20,014 bases of DNA. It comes from a virus. The stretch is taken from the IMG/VR virus record IMGVR_UViG_3300045999_007214, positions 1 to 20,014 of that record; one strand, written 5' to 3'. This document shows, one piece after another, positions 8,450 to 18,687 of the stretch. Under the pieces are notes generated by a model. The model had not been told where the DNA came from. It ran no database searches and worked only from the letters and a program-made list of their open reading frames with translations. Position numbers and translations under genes: made by a program. The stretch's first letter is position 1. Every line of letters starts with the position of its first letter.

Positions 8450-9081
8450 TGGCATATTTAAATCATAACATACCAACAATAACATGTTACATACGCAATG
8501 AGTATATGTTCAATCACGAAAAAGGTGAAGGCGAATATACATTAGCAGATGTACATAGTGTAGCTTCACTTGAAAAACGCGTACCGTTATTTGAAGCATT
8601 TCTAGAAAATGGAGTTAATTGGACAAGAAGACCAATCACAGCATTTTGTTGGAAAAAGACTGCACCTAAACTTCCTATAGAATATCATATGTATTGGGAT
8701 TGTTTTAGTCCGTATATTGATGTTCAAATACGACAAAGATTAGCAGGCCTTCGTGCTGAGTTAATTGATTTTAAAGGCAAAAAACATGAAGGTGCATATA
8801 TGTTTACTTTGGATTGGTCATGGGAAAATAAAGCAGGTGTTACTAATGTAAACTTTTCAGAAACACCTGAACATAAATGCGGACACTTGTTTAAGATGGA
8901 TGACGGAAACTTTTTTATTTATCCTAACAACAGAATCATATGGAGAGATGATGCTTGGACTTATAAAAGAATTGATGCTAACCCTGGATATAAAATTGAT
9001 ATGAATGAATATAGCGTAGAAAACAAACGCAAAGTAGAAACGGATTATTCATATATTACAGAATTTAAAGAAGTAAAATAA
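8449..9081 (+). CDS. Conserved hypothetical phage protein
   Basis: A 210-residue soluble protein, rich in Trp, Tyr and His, with no recognised motif. Distinct segments include FCWKKTAPKLPIEYHMYWD (about 66-84), FSPYIDVQIRQRLAGLRAEL (about 86-105), FTLDWSW (about 119-125) and NFFIYPNNRIIWRDDAW (about 154-170). Mixed alpha/beta character and aromatic content suggest a folded virion or host-takeover protein. It starts inside the previous stop (TAATG) and ends 8 nt before the next gene, so it is cotranscribed with the candidate virion genes around it. I recall related unknown proteins in marine myoviruses but cannot name a family. Confidence 0.65.
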   Translation: MAYLNHNIPTITCYIRNEYMFNHEKGEGEYTLADVHSVASLEKRVPLFEAFLENGVNWTRRPITAFCWKKTAPKLPIEYHMYWDCFSPYIDVQIRQRLAGLRAELIDFKGKKHEGAYMFTLDWSWENKAGVTNVNFSETPEHKCGHLFKMDDGNFFIYPNNRIIWRDDAWTYKRIDANPGYKIDMNEYSVENKRKVETDYSYITEFKEVK

Positions 9082-9089
9082 AGGTATTT

Positions 9090-9422
9090 ATGAAACTAAT
9101 TAATTTATTATTCGAATCCAAACAAACTAACGATAAGTTTGAAGAATTTGCAGAAACTCGAGGTAAGGGTGCTGCTAAGATAGCTTCTACCGCTGAAGAA
9201 AAAGGTGGATTAGCATTGCTAACATGGCATCATTTCAAAGTGAAAGCTGCATACTATAAACGAGCTACTGCAGGAAAATTTGAAGTTGATTCTGCAAAAA
9301 AAGAATTTGCTGAGACTTTAAAAAAGATTTCATTGGATATGACACCAATTGAATTTCAACGCGAAGTTGGACGTTTGGAAGTATTAGGTGAATTGATTAT
9401 ACGAGATCAAAAAGGCAAATAA
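9090..9422 (+). CDS. Small basic helical protein with capsid-targeting-like N-terminus
   Basis: A 110-residue, Lys- and Glu-rich helical protein. Its first ten residues, MKLINLLFES, match the shared signature also seen in MIRLKHLLSES (9422) and MIRLKSLLIES (10273), with LFE|S as the predicted prohead-protease site. In T4 the internal protein IPIII begins in the same style (MKTYQEFIAEA) and is cleaved after (L/I)xE. The rest has no recognised domain; it resembles small basic internal proteins in size and charge. Its stop overlaps the next start by 1 nt, placing it with the lysozyme and HAD genes that carry the same leader. Predicted role: packaged internal-head protein. Unknown activity. Confidence 0.6.
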   Translation: MKLINLLFESKQTNDKFEEFAETRGKGAAKIASTAEEKGGLALLTWHHFKVKAAYYKRATAGKFEVDSAKKEFAETLKKISLDMTPIEFQREVGRLEVLGELIIRDQKGK

Positions 9423-10276
9423 TGATACGTTTAAAACATTTATTATCGGAGTCTCTAGTAAATGATGCTGAATTCCGTGCACAAGTAAAAGATTGGGAAG
9501 GTAAAGTTACTAATGCAGCTGGTCTTCATGTATCATATGATGATGAAACTGGTCGACCTGTACAATCTCCTAAAGAAGTAAAAGGAGTACTTACAATTGG
9601 TTATGGTACTACTAAAACTATATTTCCTGAATTAAAACCAGGATTAAAAATTTCTGAAAAACAAGCAGATAACTTGTTAACGAAAGGAATAAAAACCATC
9701 GAAGATACTGTTAAACGAAAAATTCCACAATACGATTCATATCCTAGATATGTACGCACGGCAATAATGAATGCATCATATCGGGGGGACTTAGGACCTG
9801 CTACAACTAAGTTGATTAATCAAGGAGCTTGGAATAAAGTTTCAAAAGAATATCTAAACCATAGCAACTATACTAGCCCAGGATCATTAACTGGCGTTGT
9901 AAAACGAATGAAATCTAATGCCGATGCTTTCGATCGTTATGCAAAGGAACGTGCAAATAAAAAACCTGCAGATGCAGTAAAATCAAAACAAACATATAAA
10001 GGTAATGTTGGTAGAATGTTATATCCAAGAAAAACCCCGGATACCAATTTTGCTAACGTTAGAAATGAACCTGTTATTAATAATGGATTTTTTACTAACA
10101 TTATTTCTAGAATCGAATGGCCGAACCCAGTTGGTGTAGCTAAGTCGAAAAAATTTGACGCACAAGGTAAGGCGTGGTATTATGTTGAATTACCAGCTGG
10201 TACTAGTTCATCATATAAACATGGGTGGGTACGATATGATGTAGTTACTGCAAATAAAACTGGAAAATACATATGA
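9422..10276 (+). CDS. T4-type lysozyme (GH24-like) with SH3-like C-terminus and packaging leader
   Basis: A 284-residue protein in three parts. Residues 1-11 (MIRLKHLLSES) form a capsid-targeting-like leader with a predicted cut after E10. Residues about 12-175 look like a GH24 muramidase: catalytic Glu in DWEGKV (E26), the LTIGYGTT motif (57-64) equivalent to TIGIGH of T4 lysozyme, and a helical region with RTAIMNASYRGDLGPATT. About 30 residues separate the Glu from TIGYG, longer than in T4 lysozyme, so a loop is inserted. Residues about 195-284 resemble an SH3-like wall-binding domain (ANVRNEP, WYYVELPAG, HGWVRYD). A lysis endolysin is already present at 2398, so this enzyme is more likely virion-borne and used in entry. 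It overlaps the next gene by 4 nt. Confidence 0.72.
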   Translation: MIRLKHLLSESLVNDAEFRAQVKDWEGKVTNAAGLHVSYDDETGRPVQSPKEVKGVLTIGYGTTKTIFPELKPGLKISEKQADNLLTKGIKTIEDTVKRKIPQYDSYPRYVRTAIMNASYRGDLGPATTKLINQGAWNKVSKEYLNHSNYTSPGSLTGVVKRMKSNADAFDRYAKERANKKPADAVKSKQTYKGNVGRMLYPRKTPDTNFANVRNEPVINNGFFTNIISRIEWPNPVGVAKSKKFDAQGKAWYYVELPAGTSSSYKHGWVRYDVVTANKTGKYI

Positions 10277-10722
10277 TACGTTTAAAATCTTTACTAATTG
10301 AAAGCTCAGCTACATATACGTTATATGTTGATATGGGAGGTGTGTTATTCAAAAAAATGGGTGCCGATGCAGGCGGGAAGGGAACAAAGACTGAATACAT
10401 TGGAAACACATTGTGGAATGCTATAAAAAATTTAGATCCAATAATTCTTTCAGCTGTCGACAGTGATGTTGATGGCAAAAAGAAAGAAACTAAACGAAAA
10501 CAAGTTGCTGACCATTTAACCCCAACACCATCAATTAAATTTGTTACAAAAGGTACGGATAAGGGTAACGACGGCCGCGCAAATAAAAATTCAATACTAA
10601 TCGATGATGACGACGCAAACATAACGTCTTGGAAATCTAAAGGTGGTATCGGAATCCTACATAAATCAACCGATGTACAAGCTACAATCAAACAATTAAA
10701 AAAATATTTTGATTTGGATTAA
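10273..10722 (+). CDS. HAD-like protein with altered motif I and packaging leader
   Basis: A 149-residue protein starting with MIRLKSLLIES, the shared capsid-targeting-like leader, with a predicted cut after E10. The remainder resembles a compact HAD-superfamily domain: motif I is VDMGGVLF (19-26), motif II ILSAV near residue 58, a Lys-rich KKKETKRKQ stretch (70-78), and motif IV ILIDDDDANITSW (about 107-119) followed by GGIGILHK, as in 5'-nucleotidase or polynucleotide-phosphatase HAD proteins. The second catalytic Asp of motif I (DxD) is Gly at residue 22, so normal phosphatase catalysis is doubtful. It may be an inactive or altered HAD domain, or use a different residue. It overlaps the lysozyme gene by 4 nt, suggesting coordinated production. 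Confidence 0.6.
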   Translation: MIRLKSLLIESSATYTLYVDMGGVLFKKMGADAGGKGTKTEYIGNTLWNAIKNLDPIILSAVDSDVDGKKKETKRKQVADHLTPTPSIKFVTKGTDKGNDGRANKNSILIDDDDANITSWKSKGGIGILHKSTDVQATIKQLKKYFDLD

Positions 10723-10747: not shown

Positions 10748-10948
10748 ATGACACAAGAAAATTTCATTGGGAAGTTATTGATGGCATCTATAAATCATAT
10801 GAAAACAGATGATTGGGAATGGCCACCGAATTGGGATTTAACTAAAAAACAAAGATTTTTAAATCAATGTCTTGTATATGCAGAACAAAATGAATTATAT
10901 GAACAATGTGCAATCATTAGAGATGTCGAAAAAGAAATTAACAAATAG
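10748..10948 (+). CDS. Small hypothetical protein
   Basis: A 66-residue acidic, Trp-containing protein. Residues 22-30 (DWEWPPNWD) form a distinctive turn, followed by a helix (LTKKQRFLNQCLVYAEQNEL, 31-50) and a short C-terminal helix. Its last 26 nt overlap the start of the ClpS-like gene, implying coupled translation. No family is recognised. The TPR- or UVR-like helical pattern (an 'AEQNELYEQCAIIRD' segment resembles UvrB/UVR motifs in clamp proteins) hints at a protein-protein interaction module, but this is weak. Confidence 0.55.
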   Translation: MTQENFIGKLLMASINHMKTDDWEWPPNWDLTKKQRFLNQCLVYAEQNELYEQCAIIRDVEKEINK

Positions 10949-11180
10949 AAGAGGTCAACATAAAGTAATTGTCCATAATGACAATCACAATACGTTTGAA
11001 CATGTTATTAATTCGTTGATGGATGTATGCGGCCATGGATACTTGCAATCAGTACAGTGTGCTACTATAACTCATACAAATTCAAAGTGTGCAGTGTACA
11101 CTGATAGCTATGATGAATGCATTCAAGTTCAACGAGAATTACAATCATTAGGTATAACCGTTTCAATTGAAAAATGCTAG
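10923..11180 (+). CDS. clpS: ClpS-like Clp protease adaptor
   Basis: An 85-residue protein starting at the ATG at 10923; an in-frame ATG at 10872 would add 17 residues that only shadow the overlapping gene. After a basic N-terminus, KVIVHNDNHNTFEHVINSL (14-32) matches the ClpS core with the Asn-Asp pair (N19, D20) that binds the N-terminal amino group of N-degron substrates, the next acidic residue being Asn here (N21). ITHTNSKCAVYT (49-60) aligns with the conserved 'VHxxGxxxxGVYT' region and keeps its His (H51). The C-terminus, LQSLGITVSIEK (73-84), matches the closing strand. ClpS delivers N-degron proteins to ClpAP. A phage copy could redirect host proteolysis or compete with host ClpS. 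Family call is good; in vivo partner is unknown. Confidence 0.8.
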   Translation: MSKKKLTNRRGQHKVIVHNDNHNTFEHVINSLMDVCGHGYLQSVQCATITHTNSKCAVYTDSYDECIQVQRELQSLGITVSIEKC

Positions 11181-11359
11181 AACAAATAATTAAAATTAGA
11201 ATTGCATTGCTGCACGCAACATATCATAGAAATATGAAACGTGCGGAGAAATGTAGACAACAATTAGATATTGTTAAATTTAAAAAGTATGTCTATGCTG
11301 CGGAAGATGCATGGCGTAAATTAGTTATATTATCAAATAAATTAAAACCAAATGGGTAG
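11174..11359 (+). CDS. Small basic helical hypothetical protein
   Basis: A 61-residue, strongly basic, all-helical protein (about 18 Lys/Arg) with a HATYHRNMKRAEKCRQQ segment (14-30) and a second helix to residue 58. It overlaps the ClpS-like gene by 7 nt and the next gene by 8 nt, which supports it as a real member of the run of small genes. Heptad-like hydrophobic spacing suggests a short helical hairpin or coiled coil, like the one in the gene at 10748. No family is recognised. Confidence 0.5.
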   Translation: MLEQIIKIRIALLHATYHRNMKRAEKCRQQLDIVKFKKYVYAAEDAWRKLVILSNKLKPNG

Positions 11360-11738
11360 AAAATCAGCTCACACCGGAATGTCTCCGAAGGATCGCTCCA
11401 TTAACATAATGGACAAGTTTATCACAAGAAATCAAAATAAACAAAAAGATCGACCATTTCAATCTGCACGTAGAAAAGATCCGGATGTTCCGATTCATAT
11501 GTGGCCATTGAACGATCAAATTGAATATTGGGAAAATAGAACCGACAGCGATCGATTCGATGATTTGTATCCTATCTATTCTTATTGGATTGATGAAGTA
11601 CAACGATTATCTAAAGTACATCCGACATTCTTTGCAGATTGTACATTAAAATTAAAACCAATGTTGTTGGAAATGTATGATGCAAAAACACCAACAAAAG
11701 ATACAGTGGCTGAATTAAGAAAGCACGGAGTTTATTAA
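11352..11738 (+). CDS. Hypothetical protein
   Basis: A 128-residue protein with a basic N-terminal third (residues 1-43, rich in Lys, Arg, Asn), then a conserved-looking aromatic/acidic stretch: DVPIHMWPLNDQIEYWENRTD (about 45-65), DDLYPIYSYWIDEVQRLSK (about 70-88), and a C-terminal helix. There is no recognised catalytic motif. It overlaps its upstream neighbour by 8 nt and its downstream neighbour by 1 nt. The basic tail and folded body are compatible with nucleic-acid or ribosome binding, but this is only composition. Confidence 0.58.
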   Translation: MGRKSAHTGMSPKDRSINIMDKFITRNQNKQKDRPFQSARRKDPDVPIHMWPLNDQIEYWENRTDSDRFDDLYPIYSYWIDEVQRLSKVHPTFFADCTLKLKPMLLEMYDAKTPTKDTVAELRKHGVY

Positions 11739-12292
11739 TGGAAGATAAACAATATAAGTATGTATATGGCATCGGTAAGACTGCCTTAGATATTCCAGAA
11801 AGCGAAATACGTTATGCAATGGAGAATACAAAGTCTAATGCAGAGGCAGCTCGCTTTCTGAAAGTATCGTTTACTACTTATAAAAAGTATGCTCGATTAT
11901 ATACTGATAGAGATTCGGGTAAAACATTGTATGAATTACATAAGAATCAATTTGGGATAGGAATTCGTAAGGATGTTGCAAATGCTCGTAAAGGTATTTA
12001 CTCGATTGATAATGTACTCGAAGGCAAGCATCCTAACTATCCTTCATGGAAGCTACGCAATAGACTATTAGCATTAGCTATACTGCCAGAAGAATGTGCA
12101 AGTTGCGGATATTCGGAACGAAGAATAACAGATGATACAGTGCCACTTCGTTTAGATCATTTAGATGGTGATGACACAAATCATTGCATTGACAATTTGC
12201 AAATGCTATGTCTCAATTGTTATTATCAACAAACAGGCAATCCGTATAATGAAAATAAAGACACTTATTGGAATTACAATTTACTTGAGTGA
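11738..12292 (+). CDS. HNH endonuclease with N-terminal helix-turn-helix-like region
   Basis: A 184-residue protein. Residues 32-56 (SNAEAARFLKVSFTTYKKYAR) look like a helix-turn-helix used in DNA recognition. The C-terminal half is an HNH/zinc-ribbon nuclease: ECASCGY (119-125) and LCLNCY (157-162) provide a C120-x2-C123 / C158-x2-C161 zinc site around LRLDHLDGDDTNHCIDNLQ (138-156), where D140-H141 and N153 fit the HNH catalytic positions. It starts in the previous stop with a 1-nt overlap. It is most like free-standing phage homing or nicking endonucleases, though a role in DNA packaging or host DNA degradation is possible. No intron or split gene is visible next to it. Confidence 0.8.
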   Translation: MEDKQYKYVYGIGKTALDIPESEIRYAMENTKSNAEAARFLKVSFTTYKKYARLYTDRDSGKTLYELHKNQFGIGIRKDVANARKGIYSIDNVLEGKHPNYPSWKLRNRLLALAILPEECASCGYSERRITDDTVPLRLDHLDGDDTNHCIDNLQMLCLNCYYQQTGNPYNENKDTYWNYNLLE

Positions 12293-12304
12293 TATTTATT
12301 AATA
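12292..12304 (+). promoter_or_regulatory. Class B-like motif: ATATTTATTAATA
   Basis: Lies in the 11-nt gap between the HNH gene and the ATG at 12304. It shares ATATTTAT with the motifs at 2107, 4404 and 17030. It touches the start codon, so it would act as an upstream element only if transcripts were leaderless; more likely it is an AT-rich leader. Confidence 0.22.
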
Positions 12305-13053
12305 TGATATCAATGAAATCACTTATTATCGAAGGCCGTTATGATAGTTTGGTTACGAGACTATCTAATAAATTGCTACAAATAATCAAAGATAGTTTTG
12401 CTGCAACAACTGATCCGGAAGGCTCTTTTAGTGGCGAAAAGATTTATTTTAAACAAGGAGAGGATGTTCCGAATATCGAAGACCCTGCTACCTTTGATAA
12501 CATTTATTTTGAAGAAGTAGAAAATACAGATATCCCTGTTGAATTTTATTTAGAATTAAAAGTTCAATGGATCGAAGGATTAGATGATTTACATGTTGGC
12601 GGAGATGCATATAACAATACAAAAAGAAATTCAGATGAACTGCCACTTATTGAAATACGATTCAAATTAGATCCTGCAGAATATCCGAAACTATTATCTG
12701 AAGTTGCAATGGATCTTCGCGATACACTTCGTCATGAAATTGAACATGTAACTCAATCGGGTTGGAATACAATTGATAGCAAATTTATTCCGTCAGATCA
12801 AGCATTGCGAAAGAAAATTGAAACTGGTGCATTGCCGCCTGCTAGATATTTTACATTACCTAAAGAAATAGATGCAATGATCCAAGGTTTATATTTACGT
12901 GCTAAAAAAACAAGAACACCATTTTCTAAAGTTATCAATGATTATTTAGATATTTGGGTGAATAATAAATCAATTACTCCGGAAGATAAAATGCAAATAT
13001 TATCAGTATGGAAAAAACGAATACCACAACTAGGAATTCGTCAGGAGATATAA
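12304..13053 (+). CDS. Putative zinc metallopeptidase (HExxH) with packaging leader
   Basis: A 249-residue protein. I start it at the ATG at 12304 because MISMKSLIIEG then aligns residue for residue with MIRLKSLLIES at 10273; an upstream GTG at 12289 would disturb this. The predicted prohead-protease cut is after IIE (residue 10). The body contains a zinc-protease helix DTLRHEIEHVTQSG (about 140-153) with H144, E145 and H148, and a downstream LPKEIDAMIQGLYL helix (about 185-198) whose E188 could be the third zinc ligand. The HExxH...E pattern is that of gluzincins, but no named family is recognised. Predicted role: a protease carried in the head and delivered with the DNA, or acting in capsid maturation. 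Motif is clear; activity and packaging are inferred. Confidence 0.62.
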   Translation: MISMKSLIIEGRYDSLVTRLSNKLLQIIKDSFAATTDPEGSFSGEKIYFKQGEDVPNIEDPATFDNIYFEEVENTDIPVEFYLELKVQWIEGLDDLHVGGDAYNNTKRNSDELPLIEIRFKLDPAEYPKLLSEVAMDLRDTLRHEIEHVTQSGWNTIDSKFIPSDQALRKKIETGALPPARYFTLPKEIDAMIQGLYLRAKKTRTPFSKVINDYLDIWVNNKSITPEDKMQILSVWKKRIPQLGIRQEI

Positions 13054-13671: not shown

Positions 13672-14832
13672 ATGAAAAACAAGAAAATTGGTGTGCCTAC
13701 CATTATAAATGGCAAACAAGTAATCATCGAATTTGGTACTGATAATGACATTACGGCACTGTTCCGTCCTGTTATGATTCAGCATGCATTTAATAACGAT
13801 GAAATCCTTTTTTTTGATGAAAACACCGGCCGAGCTAAGCGCATGGATAAACAAGGTGTTGAATTAGAAGATTCAAAAAAACAACAAGAACCAGAAGTGA
13901 AAAAAGAACTAGATCCGGTAATGCAACTTATTCAGAATGCGCATAAGATTAAACCAGCAACATTAGAAATGTCTGATGTGAAATGGAAGTATCTAGTACG
14001 CTCAGCAGTTCGAGGTAAAAATATCATGATGGTTGGCCCTGCAGGTTGTGGTAAGACACAAGCCGCAAAGGATCTTCCTAAAGCAACCAATCGTCCATTC
14101 TTTTATTTTAACTTAGGTGCAACTCAAGATCCTAGAGCAACACTTATTGGTAACACTCACTTTAAGGATGGTCAGACAACGTTTGATGAGTCAGCATTTG
14201 TTAAAGCAATTCAAACTGAGAACGCAGTCATTCTATTAGATGAGTTATCACGTGCGCATCCAGAAGCTTGGAATATCTTGATGACAGTATTAGATGAAGG
14301 ACAACGTTATCTTAGATTAGATGAAGATATTAATGCGCCGACCATCTATGTAGCACCTGGAGTATCATTTATTGCAACGGCAAATATTGGTACTGAGTAT
14401 ACATCGACACGCGTGTTAGACCGAGCATTAATGGACCGTTTTGAAATCATTGAGGTTGATATATTATCTCTTTCTCAGGAAGAAGATTTGTTAACTCGTC
14501 GCTTTAAAGGAGATGTTTCAGCGGCTCTTATTCATTCAGTGGCAGATATTGCAGATGCAACACGAAAAGAATGGAGATCAGAAGATGGTAAACTTACCAC
14601 AATGGTATCAACTCGTATGACAGTTAGATTGTGTGAATTGTTAGCTGATGGCTTCTCATTAACCGAAGCCTCAGAAGTAGCAATCCTCCCTTTCTTTGAT
14701 GCATCAGGTGGCACTGACTCTGAAAGGACATTTGTTAAACAAATTATTCAGAAGCATATGGCTACTGAGATGAATGATATCTTTAATACCGGAGAAGAAT
14801 CTAATACTGAGTACGCAGACGGACCTTTCTAA
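13672..14832 (+). CDS. MoxR/CobS-like AAA+ ATPase
   Basis: A 386-residue ATPase. An N-terminal region (1-95) of unknown fold is followed by a AAA+ core: Walker A GPAGCGKT (122-129), Walker B VILLDEL (186-192), sensor 1 in ATANIG (N238), and an LDRALMDRF segment (249-257) with arginine-finger candidates R251 and R256. The tail (about 275-386) forms the lid domain. The arrangement, and a VWA protein encoded next, match MoxR-VWA pairs and the cobaltochelatase subunits CobS-CobT; cyanophages carry related 'cobS' genes without evident cobalamin pathways. It probably remodels a protein complex, with the VWA protein as partner. A terminator follows at 14851-14875, so the two are separate transcripts or only partly coupled. 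Strong family call; target unknown. Confidence 0.88.
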   Translation: MKNKKIGVPTIINGKQVIIEFGTDNDITALFRPVMIQHAFNNDEILFFDENTGRAKRMDKQGVELEDSKKQQEPEVKKELDPVMQLIQNAHKIKPATLEMSDVKWKYLVRSAVRGKNIMMVGPAGCGKTQAAKDLPKATNRPFFYFNLGATQDPRATLIGNTHFKDGQTTFDESAFVKAIQTENAVILLDELSRAHPEAWNILMTVLDEGQRYLRLDEDINAPTIYVAPGVSFIATANIGTEYTSTRVLDRALMDRFEIIEVDILSLSQEEDLLTRRFKGDVSAALIHSVADIADATRKEWRSEDGKLTTMVSTRMTVRLCELLADGFSLTEASEVAILPFFDASGGTDSERTFVKQIIQKHMATEMNDIFNTGEESNTEYADGPF

Positions 14833-14850
14833 ATTTTCATAGCTCGAATG

Positions 14851-14875
14851 GGGTGGCAGAAATGTCACCCTTTTT
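14851..14875 (+). terminator. Rho-independent terminator after the AAA+ gene
   Basis: GGGTGGCA (14851-14858) pairs with TGTCACCC (14863-14870) as an 8-bp stem with one G-U pair around a GAAA tetraloop, followed by five Ts (14871-14875). It lies 19 nt past the stop at 14832 and before a new promoter-like motif at 14906, a clear transcription boundary. Confidence 0.85.
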
Positions 14876-14905
14876 CTACTGTTCCGGTTGGAATATTCAA
14901 ATTAA

Positions 14906-14920
14906 TTTCTTATATTATAT
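14906..14920 (+). promoter_or_regulatory. Class A motif: TTTCTTATATTATAT before the VWA gene
   Basis: Begins 30 nt before the ATG at 14936, just after a terminator, where a new promoter is expected. It is followed by an A-rich leader and GAGCTATG, matching GAGTTATG before 13672. The best supported of the class A sites. Confidence 0.55.
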
Positions 14921-14935
14921 AAAAATAAAAGAGCT

Positions 14936-17029
14936 ATGAGTAGTATTATAAATAAGATTATCGGCGGTAAGTATAAGAGCACACAAGCATCTAGCTTTTG
15001 GATGAATGACGACTTTGATGTTGAATTTAAATCAGAAGCAGGCATTGACTATACTAAGTTAGCTGCAGCACAAAGAGCAATTGGTAACTTTGTGAATATC
15101 GTTACTGGTAAGACAATTCCAGTAGTATTCCAAAGTAGCGATGACAGCTACACTGATGGTGAGAAGGTTGTTATTGGTACTAAATTAGATGGCAAGAATT
15201 TTGACCCCGCAGTTGGATTAGCATTACATGAAGGTTCACATATTGCTTTGACAGACTTCTCAATGTTTAAGACTCCAGCTGGTAATTATGCTGGCAGTTT
15301 AACTAATACTAAAATGGCTCAAATATGTCAATTCAACGGTCTCGATCCGGACATGACAATGACTAATCAGGAATTTGATATTGTTAAGAATCTTTTGAAT
15401 TGGGTTGAAGATCGTCGCATTGACTTTAATATTTATAAATCAGCTCCAGGTTATCGAATGTATTATGAGGCAATGTATGATACATATTTCAATGATAAAG
15501 TTGTTGATAAAGCATTAGCAGCAGGCGAGAAGAACCAAGAGACATGGGATGATTATTTCTTTCATATTATTAACTTTACTAATCCCAATCGCAATCTAGA
15601 TACATTAGTAGCTCTACGAGATATTTGGAATACAATTGACCTTCGCAATATCAGCCGGCTTAAATCTACGGAAGATGCCTTGTTGGTAGCAATTGATGTA
15701 TATAAAAAGGTTAAAGCTGCAATTGATAATGCTCCTGAACAAGAGTCTAAGCAAGCTAGCGATAATGGAGAAGGCGAAGAAGGCAATAGCGAAGGCGAAG
15801 GAAGTGGATCAGATGGTTCTGAAGGCGGAGGCGGTAAATCATATGAGTCTGATAGTGATGGCAGTGATGTTGAAATGTCAGGAGGTGATGTTGATACTAA
15901 AGGGGGTTCTTCTTTATCTCCTGCCGATCAAAAGAAATTGGCTAAAGCAATTGACGCACAGCGTAAGTTCCTTAAAGGCGAAATGAAAAAGACAGGTCGT
16001 TTGTCAAAGTCTCAAGCAAGTGTGGTAAGAGCAATTCAAGAGTCAGGTACAGAAACGGTACAGGTAGCAACCGGTGCTGGTAATGCAGATATCATCGATG
16101 CTGTTGTTATTAGAAAATTAACGCCTGGTATCATTGCAGCAATGCCTCGATTGTTTTGTAGCAATGCATCTGATTATAGTTCTGGGATGTCTGATTTCGA
16201 CGCAGACTTTAAACAAAATTCTTGGAAAACTAGAGACATCATTCGTAATCAAGAAGCAGTAAACAAAGGAATTGTTTTAGGCAAGCAATTAGGAAAGAAG
16301 TTGCAACTTCGTAATGCAGATCGCAGCTTGAAAAGCACACGATTGGAATCTGGTAAGATTGACCGTAGATTGATTTCCCAATTGGGTTATGACAATGCAA
16401 ATGTATTCCACCGCATCATTACAGATCGATTTAAGAATTATTTCATTCACATTTCAATTGATGCATCAGGCTCAATGAATGGTCGCAAGTTTCATAATGC
16501 AATTACCTCAGCAGTAGCCGTTGCACAAGCAGCTTCGATGACGACTGGTATCCGAGTGCAAATTTCATTGCGAGGAACAGATCAGGTTAGCAACAAAGAA
16601 CGTTGTATTACTCTTTATGCATATGACTCTGCAAAAGATAAGATGAGTAAGATCCGCAGTATGTTCCGTTATTTGGATACATTTGGATGTACCCCGGAAG
16701 GATTGTCGTTTAAAAGTATTGAAAAATATATCAAATCAGATGCTAAAGGAGATGAATGTATCTTTGTTAATTACTCAGATGGTGCTCCTACCAATGTAGC
16801 TGGATGTAGTTATTTCTATGATGGCATTGCTTTCACTTATAAAGTTATCAATAACTTCCGTGAGAATAACATTAACATTGTTAGTTACTTTATTGCGGAG
16901 CCTGGATATAGTTACGGTAAAGATGAATTCAAAAGAATGTACGGACCAGATTCAATATATATTGATCCATCGAACATGATGCAAGTTGCAAAAACTTTGA
17001 ATCAAAAATTCTTGGAAATTGCTAAATAG
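14936..17029 (+). CDS. Zincin plus VWA protein (CobT/DUF2201-like partner of the AAA+ ATPase)
   Basis: A 697-residue protein with three parts. Residues about 30-260 contain a zinc-protease-like site, GLALHEGSHIAL (94-105) with H98, E99 and H102, and a downstream acidic helix NWVEDRR (155-161) whose E158 suits a third ligand. Residues about 268-330 are a low-complexity acidic Gly/Ser linker. The C-terminal part is a VWA domain with a MIDAS motif DASGSMNGRKF (D509, S511, S513) and a later YSDGAPTN (D615), which bind a metal and ligand. Such zincin-plus-VWA proteins work with MoxR/CobS ATPases; the CobT subunit of cobaltochelatase has a similar acidic linker and VWA end. No chelatase partner (CobN) is visible here, so a protein-remodelling or proteolytic role is more likely. 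Confidence 0.78.
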   Translation: MSSIINKIIGGKYKSTQASSFWMNDDFDVEFKSEAGIDYTKLAAAQRAIGNFVNIVTGKTIPVVFQSSDDSYTDGEKVVIGTKLDGKNFDPAVGLALHEGSHIALTDFSMFKTPAGNYAGSLTNTKMAQICQFNGLDPDMTMTNQEFDIVKNLLNWVEDRRIDFNIYKSAPGYRMYYEAMYDTYFNDKVVDKALAAGEKNQETWDDYFFHIINFTNPNRNLDTLVALRDIWNTIDLRNISRLKSTEDALLVAIDVYKKVKAAIDNAPEQESKQASDNGEGEEGNSEGEGSGSDGSEGGGGKSYESDSDGSDVEMSGGDVDTKGGSSLSPADQKKLAKAIDAQRKFLKGEMKKTGRLSKSQASVVRAIQESGTETVQVATGAGNADIIDAVVIRKLTPGIIAAMPRLFCSNASDYSSGMSDFDADFKQNSWKTRDIIRNQEAVNKGIVLGKQLGKKLQLRNADRSLKSTRLESGKIDRRLISQLGYDNANVFHRIITDRFKNYFIHISIDASGSMNGRKFHNAITSAVAVAQAASMTTGIRVQISLRGTDQVSNKERCITLYAYDSAKDKMSKIRSMFRYLDTFGCTPEGLSFKSIEKYIKSDAKGDECIFVNYSDGAPTNVAGCSYFYDGIAFTYKVINNFRENNINIVSYFIAEPGYSYGKDEFKRMYGPDSIYIDPSNMMQVAKTLNQKFLEIAK

Positions 17030-17043
17030 ATATTTATATTAAA
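17030..17043 (+). promoter_or_regulatory. Class B motif before groEL: ATATTTATATTAAA
   Basis: Starts 1 nt after the stop at 17029 and 44 nt before the groEL ATG. It is identical over 14 nt to the motif at 4404-4417. Likely promoter or leader element. Confidence 0.45.
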
Positions 17044-17055
17044 TAAAAGTTATAA

Positions 17056-18687
<1,632 letters not shown>

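Follow-up and report, generated by a model that had tools for sequence, protein, structure and literature searches.

A phage-encoded ClpS and an overlapping UVR-like mini-protein as a possible two-part adaptor for the ClpC protease of Bacteroidota

The occurrence in phages of ClpS, a small protein that selects the substrates of cellular Clp proteases, is already published and is not in itself new. Iyer and co-workers proposed that a phage ClpS brings targets to host ClpAP (PMC7824862; AMM43882.1). The jumbo phage Atu_ph07 encodes ClpS as gp708, alongside its own Clp ATPases and a ClpP-like subunit (PMC6102473). Reports of phage ClpS were found in the literature searched; experimental tests of phage ClpS were not. 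Cellular systems provide the other points of reference. Plant ClpS1 binds ClpF, the UVR domain of which helps to contact ClpC, and the two have been proposed to form a binary adaptor (PMC7966870). Several UVR proteins are strongly enriched on plastid ClpC1 (PMC8889267). Mycobacterial ClpS partly inhibits ClpC1, and the effect depends on middle-domain residues next to the Uvr motif (PMC6274998). The N-terminal tail of Escherichia coli ClpS is gripped by the pore loops of ClpA, and delivery is inhibited when entry of the tail is blocked (PMC9663308).

The locus described here lies in a window of 20,014 nucleotides, the whole stretch of viral DNA that was analysed. Its ClpS is phage-encoded, like those of the jumbo phages (Atu_ph07 gp708; AMM43882.1), for which a role with a Clp protease or ClpAP has been proposed. 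Unlike Atu_ph07, the phage group of the window has no detected Clp ATPase or ClpP in the records searched. Two further differences from the jumbo-phage proteins are that the likely target is the ClpC of Bacteroidota and that a gene for a UVR-like mini-protein overlaps clpS. Structure and motif also liken the phage proteins to the ClpS1/ClpF/ClpC1 system of Arabidopsis chloroplasts, which combines an HNDN pocket, ClpC in place of ClpA and a partner with a UVR domain. Plant ClpF is larger and carries a YccV domain, whereas the phage mini-protein has 66 amino acids, and its putative partnership with ClpS is suggested by adjacency and motif similarity. The new elements are thus the T4-like lineage associated with Bacteroidota, the likely ClpC target, the short ClpS tail and the constant UVR-like companion.

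The clpS gene occupies positions 10923–11180 (coordinates are those of the window, plus strand unless stated). An ATG at 10923 opens the frame, a stop codon closes it at 11180 and the product has 85 amino acids. The start is secured by the relatives L011, L014, L161 and L182, in which the frame is closed one or two codons further 5'. Against the Pfam family PF02617 (ClpS; curated cut-off 23 bits) the protein scores 52.2 bits, with E-values of 1.4e-15 to 5.2e-14. An AlphaFold2 model built on a 59-row alignment reaches a pLDDT of 92 and has the strand and helix order of ClpS. In a Foldseek search, the top PDB structure is 7d34, Arabidopsis ClpS1 solved with bound peptide (TM 0.91 by target length, rmsd 0.8 Å). 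The first 38 PDB matches are all ClpS structures, including one malarial ClpS fusion, and the TM-score by target length reaches 0.97. Profile and model together confirm membership of the ClpS family, as the earlier note had proposed from the letters alone; the match lies well above the family cut-off, and the predicted fold is that of ClpS, peptide pocket included. More specific assignments fall short. The NCBIfam equivalogs PRK00033 and PRK13019 give 29.8 and 29.2 against cut-offs of 107 and 158, so the protein is assigned to the ClpS superfamily, without a named orthologue group. PHROGs holds no family for it or for the mini-protein. A phmmer search of PDB with the single ClpS sequence found no match, whereas the alignment profile did. 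When relatives among isolated phages were sought, ClpS gave clear matches only to three metagenomic phages of about 635–642 kb, and the mini-protein gave none.

Residues of the N-degron pocket can be placed by collinear alignment with E. coli ClpS. Asn19-Asp20-Asn21 (10977–10985) corresponds to Asn34-Asp35-Asp36, and His51 (11073–11075) to His66. The Asn-Asp pair and downstream histidine remarked on in the earlier note are thus in place, and the residues equivalent to those that contact the alpha-amino group (Asn19, Asp20, His51) are kept, with Asn standing for Asp36. Variation was counted over 43 distinct ClpS sequences of the phage group, in E. coli numbering and ignoring kinship. Position 35 is Asp in all 43, position 34 is Asn or Asp, and position 66 is His in 39 of the 43. 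Position 36 is Asn in 22 and Asp in 13, the others having Ser, Thr, Pro or Lys. By the same count, the pocket is looser overall in the phage group than in bacterial relatives. The asparagine at position 21, which the earlier note had singled out as a departure, is real but not unusual: it is the commonest state in the phage group, it occurs in five of 50 sampled Bacteroidota ClpS, and the HNDN motif of Arabidopsis ClpS1 has Asn at this position likewise. These counts speak against a loss of function marked by Asn21, and that reading was rejected; by alignment, the residue is ordinary natural variation. As far as residues can tell, the conserved pocket favours a working recognin. The cysteines of the protein are also stable. 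Cys66 (11118–11120) is kept in 32 of the 33 members of the phage clade, and Cys36, Cys46 and Cys56 are invariant there.

The origin of the gene was approached with a tree of 110 ClpS sequences over 86 columns, in which deep forks are weak. The 33 phage-group sequences form one side of a single branch (support 98/98; length 0.64). This clade joins Bacteroidota ClpS, apart from Chloroflexota and also apart from a small Bacteroidota set of another type, one member of which adjoins a ClpA gene. The most likely history, judged from the tree, is one ancient acquisition from Bacteroidota ClpS. Chromosomal ClpS of Bacteroidota are the closest bacterial relatives; in them, as in the phage proteins, Phe occupies the Met40 gate position. 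A second, separate phage ClpS set (L123–L155; contigs up to about 597 kb) has the canonical NDD and mostly a 20-residue tail, lacks the UVR-like gene, and is placed elsewhere among Bacteroidota. Two separate sets probably mean at least two acquisitions.

Which protease such a protein would serve depends on the host. Shine-Dalgarno sites are nearly absent from the phage group of the window and upstream regions are A-rich. From the near-absence of these sites and the ancestry of ClpS we infer a host among Bacteroidota, an assignment that is supported, not proven. ClpS is present in 285 of 297 Bacteroidota genomes. ClpA passes its family cut-off in one of 41 sampled genomes and not in the other 40, and a ClpC-sized frame (832–914 amino acids) with a UVR motif occurs in about 35 of the 41, among the matches listed. 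Four of these frames were read whole; each is ClpC, with the N-domain, two ATPase domains and a UVR motif in the middle domain. Five related phage records contain no ClpP and no Clp N-domain. One of them, G301, is 159,586 bp long with a 64-bp terminal repeat, which suggests a complete genome. Since ClpC is common and ClpA rare in Bacteroidota, and neither a Clp ATPase nor ClpP was detected in the phage records searched, the likely target is host ClpCP. The earlier proposal that a phage ClpS acts here therefore stands as to the protein, and its partner changes from ClpAP to ClpCP.

The same proposal had linked ClpS to capsid maturation, with the prohead protease exposing new N-termini. Relatives have an S77 prohead protease, but none was identified in the window. 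Many proteins of these phages begin with M-x-x-L-K-x-L-L-x-E, a tag ending in LxE that resembles the capsid-targeting tags of T4. In one relative, 16 of 187 proteins carry it at the N-terminus, an enrichment over internal Met controls (seven of 878), and each of two 160-kb relatives has 15–16 tagged proteins. Cleavage after the Glu would expose mainly Gly, Ser, Ala, Asp or Lys; Phe, Tyr, Trp or Leu is predicted in just six of 206 cases, a distribution that speaks against N-degrons arising chiefly through capsid maturation. The prohead protease is not supported as their supplier. Tags like M[IK]xLKxLLxE also occur on four window proteins: MKLINLLFE-S (9090–9422), MIRLKHLLSE-S (9422–10276), MIRLKSLLIE-S (10273–10722) and MISMKSLIIE-G (12304–13053). 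On the strength of these T4-like tags, the packaged proteins may include a phage lysozyme and a nucleotidase-like protein. The protein at 10273–10722 has 149 amino acids and resembles phage 5'-3' deoxyribonucleotidases (PHROG 2643, E 1.4e-13); among the loci seen, the closest relative alone has such a gene 5' of clpS.

Directly 5' of clpS, at 10748–10948, is the gene for the mini-protein, which shares 26 nt with the clpS start. All related contigs that extend far enough share this arrangement. In one scan, clpS follows at once in 53 of 53 loci, and in another in 76 of 77 newly fetched ones; the scans have many contigs in common, and the counts are not additive. Among the 77, the sole exception is cut off by its contig end 15 nt past the mini-protein. 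The AlphaFold2 model (pLDDT 89.5) has three helices, at residues 3–18, 31–47 and 51–65, and the last two form a hairpin at a pLDDT of about 89–95. This hairpin (residues 31–65, LYEQCAIIRDVEKEI; 10838–10942) resembles the UVR motif in the middle domain of host ClpC, KYEEAARLRDTEKQI. UVR motifs of ClpC, McsA, UvrB and bifunctional nucleases are helix-turn-helix hairpins with YExxAxxRD, as in the mini-protein; the phage family departs from the usual form by having, in almost all its members, Cys in place of the first Ala (YEQCA). The Pfam profile PF02151 (UVR) does not match the mini-protein at E up to 10, and so it is called UVR-like only.

Profile comparisons place the likeness beyond chance. 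With hhalign, the mini-protein scores 24.6 against UVR, and none of 150 column-shuffled controls scores as high (9.3 ± 2.1, maximum 16.8). Profile–profile scores against ClpC and UvrB/nuclease UVR sets are 19.4–24.8, again above all 150 shuffled controls (means near 9–10). When a ClpC-UVR profile is run over 8,624 phage frames, the mini-protein family takes most of the top ranks, at E-values of 0.15 and above. The mini-protein profile (A4) gives 19 weak matches and no full-length match in the 297 Bacteroidota genomes; four of the 19 are confirmed UVR motifs, in host proteins of about 210–232 amino acids. Foldseek with the mini-protein model returns nothing significant, only chance-level matches, and entries for McsA–McsB and MecA–ClpC (E about 7–8) were not counted. 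From profiles and model, a resemblance of the C-terminal hairpin to the UVR motif is supported, not proven. A clear UVR motif occurs in another viral contig with ClpS, L150: on its minus strand, at about 8605–9252, a protein of about 215 amino acids has a strong C-terminal UVR motif (E 1.9e-11 to a host UVR profile) and is probably of the bifunctional-nuclease type.

Downstream, the end of clpS is overlapped by a gene for a 61-aa protein (11174–11359), followed by genes for a 128-aa protein (11352–11738), neither with a family match, and a 184-aa HNH endonuclease-like protein (11738–12292; PHROG 14736, E 1.5e-16). These three are as constant as the mini-protein and clpS pair and complete a conserved five-gene block, whereas the genes 5' of the pair vary among relatives. 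Because the whole block is syntenic, adjacency of the pair alone is no proof of joint function, and that argument was rejected. A UVR reading of the 61-aa protein was also dropped, there being no PF02151 match. The wider surroundings include, at 13672–18687 (2.7–7.8 kb downstream of clpS), genes for an AAA protein (MoxR/CbbQ-like), a CobT-like VWA protein and full GroEL in succession. The order recurs in relatives, and this may be a proteostasis region. At 13–2080, a sugar epimerase/dehydratase gene is followed by one for a family 2 glycosyltransferase, possibly a set for surface sugars.

By analogy with the systems above, a phage with adjacent genes for ClpS and a UVR-like hairpin would have both kinds of handle on ClpC. 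The following course of events can be proposed. An ancestor of the T4-like phage lineage would have taken clpS long ago from a Bacteroidota host, and selection has retained it. Once made, phage ClpS would dock on the host ClpC ATPase and, through its conserved pocket, capture proteins whose bulky N-terminal residues are exposed. Translation of the mini-protein is probably coupled to that of clpS. Like plant ClpF, which engages both ClpS1 and ClpC, the mini-protein would attach either to the middle domain of ClpC, where the UVR motif lies, or to ClpS. In competition with host ClpS, the pair would prevail and steer host ClpCP toward a set of substrates chosen by the phage. Redirection of this kind by the pair is the reading that we favour, tentatively and at somewhat less than an even chance. 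We infer the binding events and the substrates, and also that the outcome is redirection and not inhibition. A broader statement, that a short-tailed ClpS and a stand-alone mimic of the ClpC UVR hairpin form a two-part phage adaptor that takes over or shuts down ClpCP, is somewhat unlikely.

The N-terminal tail bears on the choice between delivery and inhibition. Residues 1–12 (MSKKKLTNRRGQ; 10923–10958) form a short basic extension. Tails of 12–14 residues are found in most of the phage clade, against 20 in the second phage clade and a median near 23 in Bacteroidota (most 20–30). Phage ClpS might thus be an anti-adaptor that occupies ClpC, and perhaps N-degron proteins, and is too short-tailed to deliver. 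Host ClpS-dependent or SsrA-type degradation would be blocked and phage proteins protected, and the UVR-like peptide would reinforce this effect, keeping the middle domain of ClpC in its resting contacts. ClpS-assisted degradation in E. coli is inhibited when the tail is kept from entering ClpA (PMC9663308), and ClpS inhibits unfolding of an SsrA-tagged protein by ClpC1 via the middle domain (PMC6274998); a peptide like the middle-domain hairpin could compete for the contacts of that domain. A pure ClpC blocker, however, would not need the pocket that is largely kept in the phage group. E. coli ClpS tolerates shortening of its tail to about 12–14 residues, so the phage tail may suffice. The short tail could make delivery less efficient, in line with an anti-adaptor; alternatively, the mini-protein could make up for it. 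Together with the variable positions 34, 36 and sometimes 66, the short tail could also mean weaker delivery or binding. On this evidence, an anti-adaptor role is rather improbable.

Phage ClpS might instead be a plain extra copy that raises the dosage of host ClpS or covers its loss in infected cells, with the mini-protein an unrelated neighbour. The gate Phe and most pocket residues are common to host and phage, the synteny of the whole block deprives proximity of weight, and the UVR match is sub-threshold. Yet the phage clade is set well apart by its long branch, shorter tail and greater pocket variation, and the resemblance to UVR exceeds that of every shuffled control; an extra copy is accordingly rather unlikely. 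A decayed, non-functional remnant is very improbable, since substitutions in some relatives (N34D, H66D or H66N) are outweighed by pairwise dN/dS values of 0.015–0.19, invariant core residues, a confident ClpS fold and retention of the gene across phages at only about 39–85% ClpS identity to the window protein. The dN/dS values are low also outside the overlap with the neighbouring gene and indicate that clpS is under purifying selection.

A two-part adaptor would be a phage parallel to the ClpS1–ClpF adaptor of plants. The clpS gene and its 66-aa UVR-like neighbour offer a small, concrete system for phage control of the host ClpC protease, and possibly a simple model for the ClpS–ClpF adaptor and for regulation of ClpC by UVR hairpins. 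The phage group also provides roughly 40 distinct natural forms of ClpS, altered in the pocket, for the study of N-degron recognition.
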